This document shows positions 15,615-22,570 of a DNA stretch of 34,908 nucleotides, piece after piece. The notes under the pieces are model-generated. The model saw only the letters and a program-made list of their open reading frames with translations, ran no database searches and was not told the origin of the DNA. A program made the position numbers and the translations under genes. Position 1 is the first letter of the stretch; each line of letters begins with the position of its first letter. The stretch is from Thermoplasmata archaeon (GTDB lineage: Archaea; Thermoplasmatota; Thermoplasmata; Thermoplasmatales; Thermoplasmataceae), in contig JAKAYB010000004.1 in assembly GCA_021826925.1 (NCBI GenBank), forward strand, positions 1 to 34,908, written 5' to 3'.

Positions 15615-17063
15615 TCATCCGACTGCGCCTAATTTTGTCATCTCTAGTTTTATGAGTCTGTTCATCTCAAGTGCAAATTCCATGGGTATTTCCCTCATGA
15701 CATCGTCAAGGAATCCAAGAACTATCATAGAGCTGGCTTCCTCTTCGCTCAACCCTCTCGATCTCAAGTATGTTAATTCATCTGTTCCAATTTTTCCGAC
15801 TGTAGCTTCGTGGCCGAACGATGCGGTAGGTTCGTATATTTCGTCATGCGGATACGTGAAACTCTGTGAATTGTCATTTATGAGAAGAGCATCACACTGC
15901 ACATGGCTTTTAGAATAGACTGCTCCCTTGTTCATTCTTAAGAGACCGCGGTATATGGCCTTCCCGTCGTCTATGCTTATGCTCTTTGCCACTATCTTTG
16001 AGCTCGTATAAGGTGCAAGGTGTAAGGCTTTTGCGCCGGTATCCTTGATAGTACCCGGGCCTGCGAGAGAAATGTTAAGATTATGCGCCGATGCATGAGG
16101 CCCTCTGAGATACGAAGACGGGTACAGCATGGTGACCTTCGATCCAAGAGAGCCGCCTACCCATTCCATCTGCCCATTTTCATCTACCCAAGCCCTCTTT
16201 GTAGGCATGTTATACACACTCTTTGACCAGTTCTGGACACTTGTGTACTTTGCCTTTGCATTCTTTTTAACATAGATTTCGACAATTGCACTGTGCAGGG
16301 AATTCGAATCGTAACGCGGAGCCGTGCATCCTTCTATATAGTGTACTTTCGATCCTTCATCTGCCACAACGATGGTGTGCTCAAACTGTCCGGTGGCTTC
16401 ACCGTTCATCCTAAAGTAAGTTTGAAGCGGCATGTCTATCTGTACGTTTGGAGGAACATATAGGAATGATCCGCCACTCCATACTGCACCATTCAGAGCG
16501 GCAAATTTGTTATCTGAAGGTGGAACGGCTTTGCACATATATTCTTTCACGAGATCTGGGTATTTTTGAACAGCAGAATCGAGATCCATGAACAGTACGC
16601 CCTTATCTTCCCAGACCTTCCTAAGGTTATGATAAACCCCTTCACTGTCATATTGTGCAACCGAACCTGCAAGATATTTCTGTTCCATCTCAGGTATGCC
16701 TAACTTCTCAAACGTGTTCTTTATCTGATCCGGGACCTCGTCCCAGTCATTGGTAGTTTCTTCTCCCGGTCTCGTATAGTACTTGATATTGTCCCATTCG
16801 ATCCCTGAGAGATCAGGACCCCACGTCGGCACAGGTTTTGAGAGGAATATTTCAAGAGAACGGAGTCTGAGTCTCCTCATCCATTCCGGTTCCTTTTTTA
16901 TTTCGGAAATTTCTTCTACAACATTCTTGTTGAGTCCCCTTCCAGTAGAATAAACAGGGCTTTCCGGATCATGAAACTCCCAGTCTTCCTGTTTTGCCCT
17001 TGAGGTCTTCAAATCCTCTATCAATTTTTCCATTTCAGCGTCTTTTTCATATTCTGCTTCCAT
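15615..17063 (-). CDS. sufB: Fe-S assembly protein SufB
   Basis: 482 aa; EPEWMRRLRLRSLEIF, YIEGCTAPRYDSNSLHSAIVEIYVKKNAKAKYTSVQNWSKSVYNM, CDALLINDNSQSFTYPHDEIYEPTASFGHEATVGKI. Confidence 0.96.
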   Translation of the reverse strand: MEAEYEKDAEMEKLIEDLKTSRAKQEDWEFHDPESPVYSTGRGLNKNVVEEISEIKKEPEWMRRLRLRSLEIFLSKPVPTWGPDLSGIEWDNIKYYTRPGEETTNDWDEVPDQIKNTFEKLGIPEMEQKYLAGSVAQYDSEGVYHNLRKVWEDKGVLFMDLDSAVQKYPDLVKEYMCKAVPPSDNKFAALNGAVWSGGSFLYVPPNVQIDMPLQTYFRMNGEATGQFEHTIVVADEGSKVHYIEGCTAPRYDSNSLHSAIVEIYVKKNAKAKYTSVQNWSKSVYNMPTKRAWVDENGQMEWVGGSLGSKVTMLYPSSYLRGPHASAHNLNISLAGPGTIKDTGAKALHLAPYTSSKIVAKSISIDDGKAIYRGLLRMNKGAVYSKSHVQCDALLINDNSQSFTYPHDEIYEPTASFGHEATVGKIGTDELTYLRSRGLSEEEASSMIVLGFLDDVMREIPMEFALEMNRLIKLEMTKLGAVG

Positions 17064-17074
17064 TTTTTTATCAC

Positions 17075-17821
17075 CTATGCCTTTATCCAGTCATAACCCT
17101 CGGTTTCTATCTGGATTGATAGTTTTTGGTCTCCGTTCATCACGATCTTTCCATTCTTCAGCACATGAACAAATCTTGGCTCAATGCTTTTCAAGATTCT
17201 CTGGTAGTGCGTTATGATCAAAAATCCAACCTCTTCATTGTATGATTCTTTTATTTCATCCGCAACCATCTTGAGTGCGTCAACGTCAAGTCCGGAATCG
17301 ATCTCATCGAGTATTACTATCCTGGGCCTGAGTATGGACATTTGCAAAATTTCGAACCGTTTCCTTTCTCCACCGGAGAATCCATCATTTACAGAGCGGG
17401 AAAGAAAAGTTTCGTCAAGGCCGACCTTGTCAAGATGTTTCTTAATTCGATCCATAAAATCCTTGATGCTTACCTGATCTTCTGGATGAACCTGCTTATA
17501 AGCTGATCTCAAAAATGTTGAAAGTTTTACTCCAGGTACTGCAACAGGGTTCTGAAACGCCAAGAACAGTCCTAATCGCGCTCTCTCCTCCGGTGTTTTA
17601 TCTGTGATGTTTATGCCATCAAGTTTTATAGTTCCACTTTCAACTTTATAATTAGGATGTCCAGCCAAAACATAACCAAGTGTGCTTTTACCAGCACCGT
17701 TTGGTCCCATTAAGGCGTGTATTTCTCCTCCTCTAACCGTTAGATTCACTCCATTCAGTATCTGCTTCCCCTCCACAGATACAACAAGATCATTTATTGT
17801 AAGTTCTGGTATGTTTGACAT
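17075..17821 (-). CDS. sufC: Fe-S assembly ATPase SufC
   Basis: 248 aa ABC ATPase; GPNGAGKSTLGYVLAGHPNY, FLAFQNPVAVPGV, NDGFSGGERKRFEILQM, ILDEIDSGLDVDALK. Confidence 0.96.
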   Translation of the reverse strand: MSNIPELTINDLVVSVEGKQILNGVNLTVRGGEIHALMGPNGAGKSTLGYVLAGHPNYKVESGTIKLDGINITDKTPEERARLGLFLAFQNPVAVPGVKLSTFLRSAYKQVHPEDQVSIKDFMDRIKKHLDKVGLDETFLSRSVNDGFSGGERKRFEILQMSILRPRIVILDEIDSGLDVDALKMVADEIKESYNEEVGFLIITHYQRILKSIEPRFVHVLKNGKIVMNGDQKLSIQIETEGYDWIKA

Positions 17822-17890: not shown

Positions 17891-18583
17891 ATGATTCAAT
17901 ACATATTCTATATGGATCAGAAAAATGAAAATTTCAGTGATGATCTGGTGCCTCTTCTTGGCATCACAAAGGCAGGTATAATAAGAGAATTGAGTTATTC
18001 TGAATTGAGTGTAGAAGAACTTTCGCATTTATTCAATATGAACAAGAACGCGATAAACGAGCATCTAGCTACTTTGGAACTCAAGGGTTATTTGAACGCA
18101 TATTTCAAGGGAAATGGCCCAGGGCGTCCAAAAAAATACTATAAATTATCAGAGAAGGGTTTTAATCTTCTTCCGAAGCGATATATGTTCCTCGCGTCCT
18201 TACTCGTAAAAGAGCTCGAAGCAGAATTTGGGCAGGACAGAGTCAATATAATCCTTGGAAATATAGCGGACAAAATCGTTTCAGAATCAGGATGGGATCA
18301 AATGCCAAAGGATCTCACAAGGGAAAAGAAAATTGATAGGCTGCACGATTTCGTTTCAGCACTGAACAGAATGGGCTACTATGCTAAATTGGAGATAGAC
18401 GGGGATGTTGTTAGGATAATAAGACACAACTGCATATTTTATGAACTGGCAAAGAATAATAAAAGCCTTATCTGTGGTGGCCTTGGGAACCAGATAATAA
18501 AAGAATCCATAGGAAAGGACTTTAAAATCAAAGAAAAGTTCTCGGAAGGAAGCAACAAATGTGTTGTTGAAGTTAATATTTAG
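17891..18583 (+). CDS. Winged-helix transcriptional regulator, SufR-like
   Basis: 230 aa; HTH LGITKAGIIRELSYSELSVEELSHLFNMNKNAINEHLATLELKGYLNAY and GPGRPKKYYKLSEKG; C-terminal cysteines (HNCIFYELAKNNKSLICGG...NKCVVEV); divergent from the suf operon. Confidence 0.8.
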   Translation: MIQYIFYMDQKNENFSDDLVPLLGITKAGIIRELSYSELSVEELSHLFNMNKNAINEHLATLELKGYLNAYFKGNGPGRPKKYYKLSEKGFNLLPKRYMFLASLLVKELEAEFGQDRVNIILGNIADKIVSESGWDQMPKDLTREKKIDRLHDFVSALNRMGYYAKLEIDGDVVRIIRHNCIFYELAKNNKSLICGGLGNQIIKESIGKDFKIKEKFSEGSNKCVVEVNI

Positions 18584-19631: not shown

Positions 19632-20234
19632 TTAATCTTCCACTCCTGTAATTTTCCCATTAACTATATTGAATGTAAAATTCTTCTCTAGAGTTTGGGA
19701 ATTCTCCTGAGCTACGTTGATCATATCAGTCTTCTGGCGACGAAGGATGGGCACCAGGTCATTGAGGGTACTTTCCGCATTGCTTATATTGGCTGAAATT
19801 TCATCCAAAAGTATCAAACGAGGATGAGAGAGGACAGATGTTGCGAGTGATACTTTTAGTTTTTGCCCTGTGCTCAGGTTCTTCAGTTTTCCTTTATAAT
19901 CTATGCCCATTATTCTTTTTATTTCATCAATCTCTTCTACTTCTGTCACTCTCAAGAAAGAAAGATGCTCTTCAACGGTCAGGTTAGGGAAAAATGAGAG
20001 GCGATCCAGATAGACAACTTTTCTTTGTTCAATTGGAATGGCAGTCAGCTCGATCCCATTGTGAACTATTGTTCCAGAATCAACTCTGATTACTCCGGCC
20101 AAGCATTTTAATAGTGTTGTTTTTCCGGATCCGTTTACACCGAAAATATGAATCATTCCCTCAGCATTAAATGACGCTTTCAGTTCGAATTCTCCGAGGC
20201 GTTTACGAATATCAACTTCTAACGCTTTAAACAC
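19632..20234 (-). CDS. ABC transporter ATPase, molybdate/tungstate type, with degenerate motifs
   Basis: 200 aa; Walker A GVNGSGKTT, signature LSTGQKLKVSLA, Walker B LILLDE; Q-loop Q replaced (VVYLDRLSFFPNLTV), H-loop His replaced (INVAQENSQ). Confidence 0.85.
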   Translation of the reverse strand: MFKALEVDIRKRLGEFELKASFNAEGMIHIFGVNGSGKTTLLKCLAGVIRVDSGTIVHNGIELTAIPIEQRKVVYLDRLSFFPNLTVEEHLSFLRVTEVEEIDEIKRIMGIDYKGKLKNLSTGQKLKVSLATSVLSHPRLILLDEISANISNAESTLNDLVPILRRQKTDMINVAQENSQTLEKNFTFNIVNGKITGVED

Positions 20235-21030
20235 CTGACCTATTGTTGCCTATGCCTTTGATAAACCTGGATATGAGAAGAACGATTATTGAAATCAATA
20301 TCATTACTGCAGACGCAGTCACTGCAGGACCAAGGCCATAATACCCAAAGAACTGGTAGATCAGGACAGAGGCTGGCATGACTCCTGCAAAAGGAAACTG
20401 GAGAATAACATATGCAATTATGGCAATGGAGCCAAATTCGCTGATCGCTCTGCTCATGGAGGTTAACGTGGCAGAAAGCAATAAACGTGCACTATTGGGA
20501 ACTACAACCCTATATAGGGTCTTGATTCTTGACAAGCCAAGTCCCATCGCAAGAATTTCTGGTTCAGATGGGTTCTGGGAAAAAACCGATTGCGCAGCTC
20601 GTATATACACAGGTGCAGAGACAAATGCAAGCGCTGTTACAAGTCCCGGTATAGAGTCAAATAGACCAAGACCTATTGATATAAGGAACCTGCCAAACGG
20701 AGTCAACGGGCTTACGATCAGAAGGAAAGCTATTCCAACTATGGGATGAGGTATCGACGCAGAAATATCCGAGATCGTTTCCATCGCTGAACTGGACAAG
20801 CGCGAAATGTGATACGCAAGCGGAGTGAAGAGCAGAAACACGATAAATGCAGCTATCGAAGAGGAAAAAATAGTGAGTGCGATGGATTTGAAAACTATCG
20901 AGCTGAACCCTATAGAGCTGTGGTAAACTGCAAATCCATATACGAGGATAAAAGCAATTGGGATAATTATGAGTATCGTTACCACGATTGAAAAGATTGT
21001 CAGACCATCAGGTTTTTTTGTGCTTGTCAT
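20227..21030 (-). CDS. Molybdate/tungstate ABC transporter permease
   Basis: 267 aa; PHPIVGIAFLLIVSPLTPFGR and EAA loop EILAMGLGLSRIKTLYRVVVPNSARLLLSATLTSMSRAISEFGSI. Confidence 0.88.
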   Translation of the reverse strand: MTSTKKPDGLTIFSIVVTILIIIPIAFILVYGFAVYHSSIGFSSIVFKSIALTIFSSSIAAFIVFLLFTPLAYHISRLSSSAMETISDISASIPHPIVGIAFLLIVSPLTPFGRFLISIGLGLFDSIPGLVTALAFVSAPVYIRAAQSVFSQNPSEPEILAMGLGLSRIKTLYRVVVPNSARLLLSATLTSMSRAISEFGSIAIIAYVILQFPFAGVMPASVLIYQFFGYYGLGPAVTASAVMILISIIVLLISRFIKGIGNNRSGV

Positions 21031-21043
21031 ACGTCCTCTCTCG

Positions 21044-22063
21044 TTAGTCTATTCTCCCTGAATAGACTAATTCGTGACTCGAGATAAGGCTCAATATCTC
21101 CACTGGTGGCGTTGTGTCGTTGAAAAGCTCTGGATGCTGAAGTGGTTTAAGTTCGAATGTGCTTAATTCGCTTCTATGGTTAAGTGTGTAGTTCACAAAT
21201 TCCATAGAGTCTGTTGCCAGAGTATTGTTCGCTAGTGCCGTAATGTATAAAAGCACAGGCGAACCTTTTTGAAGTCCCGCTACGGTTGTATAATTAAATT
21301 CAGAATAGAATGATGATAGATCCGTGTCTCCAAAATTCATCTTAGCTGGAAGCTCTATCATTTTAAGACCCGAGTGGACTGCAGCAGATTTATAGATGAA
21401 GAGAAAGCTAATTTCCCCGGTTTCGAGGGCAGGTACAAGCTGTGCGGCACTTGATCTGGTTACGTTGGCGTGATGTTGTCTAACTGCATTCACGAAATAA
21501 CTCTCATTATGCCCATATAATTCTCCCGCAATCTCTAAACTTATCCAAGCTCTAAGACCTGCGGGATCTGTGCTTGGGTCCGATATACCGAGGCTGTTCG
21601 ATTTATTAGTTATGGAGAAAAGTGCACTAACAAACTCTGAAGTATTATTATCAATCTCAGCCTGTCTTAGCATCATGGCAATTTTGTAATCTGTAGTATT
21701 GTTGTAATAGGCAAGTACCAGTTGATCCGACGCAAAGGCAATTGCCCATCCACTATAACGGTCCTTGAGGTAGTGCGAGCTATACGGAGAAAGGGCAACA
21801 GAAATGAAAACATTTGCAGGATCTCCTGAACCTATCTTTTGTGCATCTGTGTAGGAACCGCCTCCAATTGCCGGCGATACCGGGTTGCCTGTTGAATTTT
21901 GGTAGCCATTCAAGAGATAGTTAGCCTCACCTACATATGCATCTGCAACGTACGTGATCAGAGGGCTTTTGCTCTTGCTGAAATAGTAGTGAACGCCGAT
22001 ACCTGTTCCCACTGCCAGCAAGCCTACAATTACTATTATAACGATGATCTTCTGACTTTTCAC
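21044..22063 (-). CDS. Molybdate/tungstate ABC transporter substrate-binding protein (WtpA-like)
   Basis: ORF 21044..22111 (TTG start); GTG at 22063 directly before the TM segment (VKSQKIIVIIVIVGLLAVG) is more plausible. SPAIGGGSYTDAQKIGSGDPANVFIS, WAIAFASDQLVLAYYNN, LGISDPSTDPAGLRAWISLEIAGEL. Confidence 0.85.
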   Translation of the reverse strand: MKSQKIIVIIVIVGLLAVGTGIGVHYYFSKSKSPLITYVADAYVGEANYLLNGYQNSTGNPVSPAIGGGSYTDAQKIGSGDPANVFISVALSPYSSHYLKDRYSGWAIAFASDQLVLAYYNNTTDYKIAMMLRQAEIDNNTSEFVSALFSITNKSNSLGISDPSTDPAGLRAWISLEIAGELYGHNESYFVNAVRQHHANVTRSSAAQLVPALETGEISFLFIYKSAAVHSGLKMIELPAKMNFGDTDLSSFYSEFNYTTVAGLQKGSPVLLYITALANNTLATDSMEFVNYTLNHRSELSTFELKPLQHPELFNDTTPPVEILSLISSHELVYSGRID

Positions 22064-22095
22064 ATTTCGATAAAATGAATCATGTAAATAATATT

Positions 22096-22129
22096 TGTTT
22101 AAACAGTGCAAAAGTAAACATTAATGTTT
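22096..22129. promoter_or_regulatory. Paired palindromes TGTTTAAACA and AAACATTAATGTTT in the tfx/wtpA-like divergent promoter
   Basis: 22096-22105 (10-bp perfect palindrome) and 22116-22129 (14-bp perfect palindrome) share the AAACA/TGTTT half-site. Confidence 0.6.
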
Positions 22130-22165
22130 TAATTACGCGTACTATCTGAAAATAGGTGAATAACT

Positions 22166-22570
22166 GTGCGCGATCATTTCCTCACCAAACGCCAGATCGA
22201 AGTACTTCTTCTTGAAAAAGATGGTTTATCCCATTTAGAAATTGCGAAGAGGCTGGGTCGGACAGTCCAGGATATCTATGTCATCGACAAGCGTATACGG
22301 GAAAATGTGAAAAAGGCACAAAACACACTATACCTGTATGAGGATACGGGTGGTTCGATTATGCTTCCATTTAAGGGACAAAGCGAATTAATTGATATCC
22401 TGAGAGAAATTATAAATGAATCAGATAGAAACGGAATAAAATTAAAGGAAAATATTATCGGGTTACTCACAATCTTGAGGCAGGCACTAAAATCAGACAT
22501 TTCCAAAGGCCGAATAAAGAAGAATATTACCATCATGATTCGTCATGATGGCACAATCAAAATACTCTGA
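22166..22570 (+). CDS. Tfx-family DNA-binding protein
   Basis: 134 aa, GTG start; FLTKRQIEVLLLEKDGLSHLEIAKRLGRTVQDIYVIDKRIRENVKKAQNTLYLY matches the Tfx HTH pattern. Confidence 0.88.
   Translation: MRDHFLTKRQIEVLLLEKDGLSHLEIAKRLGRTVQDIYVIDKRIRENVKKAQNTLYLYEDTGGSIMLPFKGQSELIDILREIINESDRNGIKLKENIIGLLTILRQALKSDISKGRIKKNITIMIRHDGTIKIL

Follow-up and report, generated by a model that had tools for sequence, protein, structure and literature searches.

The stretch of DNA analysed here (the window, 34,908 nucleotides) comes from an 85%-complete genome of 1.58 Mb, and contains a regulator gene that faces a divergently transcribed set of transporter genes. The regulator gene, tfx, lies at 22166-22570 on the forward strand and encodes a protein of 134 residues, in which an N-terminal sigma-r4/LuxR-like helix-turn-helix domain is combined with a TFX_C domain. 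The match to the family extends over the full length, with 86.3 bits for TIGR00721 (cut-off 60.25) and 55.4 bits for PF14601 (cut-off 27), placing the protein in the Tfx family. Its Pfam and NCBIfam matches consist of Tfx models only; no ModE model is among them, and it is not assigned to the ModE family.

The transporter genes, on the reverse strand, encode a WtpA-like oxyanion-binding protein (21044-22063; 48.5 bits for PF13531 and 79 bits for the NCBIfam WtpA model), a WtpB-like permease (20227-21030; best family NF040839, 114 bits) and a WtpC/ModC-like ATPase of about 200 residues (19632-20234; PF00005, and 91 bits for TIGR02142). The wtpA gene starts with GTG at 22063, where the orthologue in the sister species has ATG. 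The scores stay below the equivalog cut-offs: 79 versus 355/243 bits for WtpA, 114 versus 340 for WtpB, and for the ATPase 73 versus 440 with WtpC and 91 versus 285 with its top model, modC. ‘WtpABC-like’ is therefore the safe name, and the identity of the substrate is not certain. With this wording, the profile matches bear out an earlier note made from the sequence, which had placed a Tfx regulator next to a divergent molybdate/tungstate (Mo/W)-type oxyanion transporter.

The ATPases of this group are short: the window protein and those of loci L080-L086 have only ~179-218 residues, and the match of the former to TIGR02142 covers only model positions 1-179 of 353. The ModC/WtpC ATPases in loci L043, L044 and L066 have 355-357 residues. 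In the longer ModC/WtpC proteins, a C-terminal TOBE/Mop domain mediates trans-inhibition; the ATPases of this group, that of the window included, are too short to hold one. Transporters with the short ATPase may be restrained chiefly at the level of transcription, by Tfx. Elsewhere in the window, a gene for an ArsR/SufR-like winged-helix regulator (17891-18583, forward strand; weak TIGR02702 and HTH_5 matches) is divergent from sufC/sufB-like genes (15615-17821) and is possibly a regulator of Fe-S biogenesis.

The spacer between tfx and wtpA has a G+C content of 24%. Two perfect palindromes had been reported in it, and a check of the sequence finds both: palindrome 1, TGTTTAAACA, at 22096-22105, and palindrome 2, AAACATTAATGTTT, at 22116-22129. 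The window as a whole contains 49 perfect palindromes of 10 bp and only 3 of 14 bp; considering these counts and the composition of the spacer, palindrome 1 is unremarkable and palindrome 2 mildly unusual. The latter occurs only once in the 1.58-Mb genome. It forms the core of an 18-bp site at 22114-22131, GTAAACATTAATGTTTTA (arms GTAAACA and TGTTTTA around TTAA), which we propose on the basis of conservation as the Tfx operator, O1. Across genomes the operator consensus is GTAAACA-N4/5-TGTTTAC.

Inspection of the sequence also suggests where the two core promoters lie. A probable tfx TATA box, TTTTAATTA (22126-22134, forward strand), overlaps the right half of O1; it is located 32-40 nt before the tfx start and is followed by a ribosome-binding-like stretch, AGGTGA. 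A probable wtpABC TATA box, AAATATTATTTA (22085-22096, reverse strand), precedes the wtpA start codon by 22-33 nt, and O1, ~50-68 nt upstream of that codon, is just above the BRE/TATA region. On the wtpA strand, palindrome 1 contains TTAAACA, immediately before the wtpA TATA box, where the corresponding element of relatives is GTAAA[G/C]A. This element is possibly a second Tfx half-site (O2), or merely a BRE. In the genomes of genus g18, O1 ends only ~18-20 nt before tfx.

Among 117 genomes of the order to which the window genome belongs, Tfx is present in 25, about 20 of which have the gene in divergent orientation to wtpA. All 22 genomes that have a WtpA orthologue (E < 1e-70; again among the 117) also have Tfx, nearly all in the divergent arrangement. 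The other three Tfx carriers, two of them g8 genomes and the third a weak match, lack WtpA.

When the spacers of these genomes are compared, O1 proves to have been kept between the divergent tfx and wtpABC genes in most genera of the family. The window and the sister species share GTAAACATTAATGTTTTA; three g18 genomes have GTAAACATTAATGTTTAC, a perfect 18-bp palindrome, from which a fourth differs by a single change; four g9 genomes have GTAAACATTATTATTTTAC or a near copy; and g3 and g12 have GTAAACAAATTTATTTAA. Within palindrome 2, G/C bases are conserved on both arms. The longer consensus was derived from the same spacer comparison on which it is scored, and for this reason a shuffle test based on the window and a blind genome search (described below) matter. 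In the shuffle test, only the half-sites given in the earlier note, AAACA and TGTTT, were scored against dinucleotide shuffles. The half-sites of palindrome 2 are matched at 9-10 of 10 positions in g17 (two of the three genomes), g9, g3, g18 and g12, with p ~0.003-0.09 each, and are at chance level in g16, g10 and g7. The longer consensus is matched at 12 of 14 positions in g10 and 11 of 14 in g16, and g7 has kept the left half-site alone.

Palindrome 1 scores 8/10 in the sister species and is at chance in the other genera, except in one g9 genome. Thus, the defined operator that had been suggested for this promoter can be recognized as a phylogenetically conserved site built around palindrome 2, which passes the comparison of orthologous promoters, and the suggested pairing of palindromes falls away. 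A single composite operator made of both was also considered and rejected, since not even the sister species has kept palindrome 1. One genome, G044, has a 388-residue gene, by eye a putative transposase, between wtpA and tfx (L123:2501-3664); the operator stays on the tfx side despite the intervening gene.

More distant archaea were covered by scanning named genomes with a mixed Tfx alignment, which returned 52 loci. These include modABC-tfx operons (L043, L044 and L066) and a tupABC-tfx operon (L047), in each of which tfx is the last transport-linked gene, and a locus in which tfx is divergent from tupAB (L049). Tfx is thus found beside three families of oxyanion transporters, Wtp, Tup and Mod; to its co-occurrence with WtpA in the 22 of 22 genomes above is added its linkage to Tup and Mod loci. 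Other neighbours occur as well. In Bathyarchaeota, tfx is directly upstream of MoCo hydroxylase genes (L087; PF02738/PF20256, then an FAD subunit), with the same gene layout, judged by size, in L090; in L042, it adjoins an fmdE-family gene. Genome G087 has two near-identical tfx-bearing contig ends (L091 and L092) and a third fragment, for which assembly redundancy and strain variants are the alternative explanations.

Sites resembling the operator accompany several of these genes: GTAAATATTTGTGTTTAC in the tfx-tupA spacer of L049, GTTAACGACAGTGTTTAC in the tupA promoter of L047, GTGAACACATTTAGTTTAC upstream of tfx in L087 and a weaker variant, GTAAACTATTTATTAAC, upstream of modA in L043 and L044. 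In the operon-type loci (L043, L044 and L047), the site is located over the BRE/TATA or the start of the transporter operon. Extra half-sites on the transporter core promoter are seen in the window lineage, L049 and L137. Most of the Thermococcales tfx/enfR genes in the set (L053-L083) have GTTAAAY-N5-TGTTTAA at their own start, a pattern that suggests autoregulation via the same half-site.

For the blind test, eight genomes with distant tfx loci were searched for GTAAAYANNNNTGTTTAC, allowing a single mismatch. The pattern occurs in one place in G462, the tfx/tupA spacer already known, in one place in G464 and in two places in G465. One match in each of the latter two genomes (1.6 and 1.3 Mb) falls in a previously unseen spacer, of 76 and 89 bp respectively, between a second tfx paralogue and a divergent tupAB. 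The second paralogues score 109 and 87 bits with TIGR00721; their TupA neighbours score 240 and 220 bits, below the equivalog cut-off of 400 but without a close competitor, and TupB ~140. The other G465 match and the single matches in G463 and G461 are in or near unrelated genes, and a reversed control pattern gave 0-3 strand matches per genome. Both G464 and G465 therefore combine the tfx of a modABC-tfx operon (L043 and L044) with a paralogue divergent from tupAB (L137 and L138).

The earlier note had further suggested a Mo/W-responsive regulon, and named the promoters of molybdopterin or tungsten enzyme genes as the place to look for more such pairs. Candidate targets are available. Of the 22 genomes with Tfx and WtpA, at least 20 encode PF00384 molybdopterin enzymes and 5 have tungsten-type AOR genes; in the window genome there are two PF00384 genes and a single MoCo hydroxylase gene. 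Operator scans of the 22 genomes (up to two mismatches) return mostly the tfx/wtpA site, about one operator per genome. In the regions fetched upstream of MoCo hydroxylase genes, the sites reach only 11-12 of 14 positions and are mostly inside genes or far away; none is convincing. A recurrent match in g9 was discarded as an extra operator, as it is the coding sequence for GVNMNVYS in an asparaginase-like amidotransferase subunit. Of the proposed regulon, the local circuit of Tfx and uptake genes is largely supported, by the conserved operator and the linkage; the wider part, reaching to Mo/W enzymes, was rejected for this lineage because the genome-wide scans and hydroxylase promoters gave no convincing further site. 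A separate observation concerns two g1 species, in which GTAAATATTAATGTTGAC, a 16/18 match (two mismatches), lies at ~1501-1518 of L031 and L099, immediately before a glutamate formiminotransferase-like gene; it is specific to g1.

Tfx proteins were already known outside methanogens, in Thermococcales and Halobacteriales (PMC10570040). One such relative is EnfR (TON_1525) of Thermococcus onnurineus, a repressor of the codh (CO-dehydrogenase) cluster (PMC10570040). An AlphaFold2 model of the window Tfx (pLDDT 91.5) was compared with the PDB using Foldseek; the best match is EnfR (8hno, E 7e-9), and the top four are all EnfR chains, with E ~1e-8, TM ~0.5 and a different domain orientation. The model has an EnfR-like ‘eighth note’ fold. 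Thr54 of the window protein does not vary among the 20 relatives in the alignment and is equivalent to EnfR Thr55; the T55I mutant of EnfR binds ~15-fold more weakly (PMC10570040). The DNase footprint of EnfR (PMC10570040) contains TTAAAATCTTTTTGTTTAC, in which TGTTTAC occurs exactly and 11 of 14 positions agree with the operator consensus, a score reached by 32 of 5000 shuffles. The sole substitution pair reported as remarkable in reducing EnfR binding includes the A of this TGTTTAC (PMC10570040), although the centre of the authors' pseudo-palindrome is 3.5 bp from the operator centre proposed here. The two regulators are thus alike in family, predicted fold, the conserved threonine and the TGTTTAC of the footprinted site, but EnfR controls the codh cluster and has no Mo/W link; consequently, a role in Mo/W regulation does not extend to every Tfx. 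EnfR has no known effector, and its authors argue against an effector-binding role for the C-terminal domain (PMC10570040).

Two other systems invite comparison. Methanothermobacter Tfx (MTH0916) belongs to the same family and is also encoded beside Mo/W-related genes, but is linked to Mo-formylmethanofuran dehydrogenase, whereas the window Tfx, from a non-methanogen, is linked to a WtpABC-like importer. The bacterial and Methanosarcinales ModE-modABC system resembles the role proposed here for Tfx, in that a palindrome-binding dimer locally controls uptake of a Mo/W oxyanion. ModE consists of a winged helix and Mop oxyanion-binding domains. The families are unrelated, and Tfx has neither a Mop-type domain nor a known oxyanion site. 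For Methanothermobacter, PMC3087415 describes, citing Hochheimer et al. 1999, repression of tfx transcription by tungstate, and it ties Tfx to the molybdate-induced fmdECB operon.

The operator, its conservation, its linkage and the co-occurrence of Tfx with WtpA come directly from the computation. From these we infer that the window Tfx binds O1, with good confidence that O1 is the operator of the adjacently encoded protein, and that Tfx shuts off tfx and controls wtpABC, likely in negative feedback. A Tfx dimer would bind the 18 bp at 22114-22131. O1 overlaps the tfx BRE/TATA, so bound Tfx should block transcription from the tfx core promoter; its position argues strongly for autorepression. 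The same dimer, located ~50 bp before the wtpA start and beside the wtpA BRE/TATA, would control wtpABC, and may contact the further half-site near that BRE/TATA. Most likely, a sufficient supply of tungstate or molybdate leads to repression of the uptake genes by Tfx, a signal that could act directly or indirectly; the repression of tfx by tungstate in Methanothermobacter (PMC3087415) speaks for this reading.

Negative feedback on both genes is the reading we favour. Its main rival, which we consider unlikely but worth keeping in view, is that Tfx represses its own gene but activates wtpABC, recruiting TBP/TFB upstream of the wtpA BRE, with W/Mo lowering the amount of active Tfx. At divergent loci the operator does not overlap the transporter TATA box but lies further from the gene, so that activation is possible, and the tie of Methanothermobacter Tfx to a molybdate-induced operon (PMC3087415) would fit. 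Against this, EnfR is a repressor (PMC10570040), the sites in L043, L044 and L047 are on the transporter promoter or start, as expected for repression, and the window lineage, L049 and L137 have extra half-sites on the transporter core promoter. Rather less probable is that Tfx regulates the transporter in response to a signal other than Mo/W, for example redox, carbon status, sulfate or another oxyanion. EnfR, which controls CO metabolism without a known effector (PMC10570040), and transporter scores below the equivalog cut-offs, leaving the substrate uncertain, are compatible with such a signal; however, Mo/W is the common denominator of Wtp, Tup, Mod and the Bathyarchaeota MoCo hydroxylase linkage, and molybdopterin enzymes are present in all 9 of the high-quality genomes with Tfx and WtpA. 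That the palindromes are products of chance or of an AT-rich core promoter (TATA/BRE) and not an operator, as the low G+C content of the spacer and the abundance of 10-bp palindromes might suggest, does describe palindrome 1 but is very improbable for palindrome 2 in view of its G/C conservation on both arms, its symmetry, its recurrence at distant tfx loci and the blind test.

Tfx itself, its link to Mo/W and one Tfx site are already known. The conserved operator and the family-wide linkage to transporters appear to be unreported in the literature searched; the search, which covered few subscription journals, found no paper on Tfx at W/Mo transporters or on the operator. Since the site is conserved across distant archaea beside three kinds of importer, this short palindrome is very probably the switch for W/Mo uptake in archaea that carry Tfx. 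A broader and more tentative idea is that Tfx may be an ancient archaeal counterpart of ModE, not homologous to it, that senses W/Mo directly and acts via GTAAACA-N4/5-TGTTTAC, possibly with metal-specific paralogues, for mod and for tup within one genome, and with EnfR re-tasked later.

ModE is absent from some archaea that need Mo or W, as PMC9765008 states for Methanococcales, and the literature searched contained no paper naming the control of Mo/W uptake in ModE-less archaea. One short operator at Tfx genes beside three transporter families is a concrete and testable answer. It also assigns a possible physiological role to a family without a known effector (PMC10570040), and the genomes with two paralogues, one mod-linked and one tup-linked, offer a natural system for studying discrimination between Mo and W.
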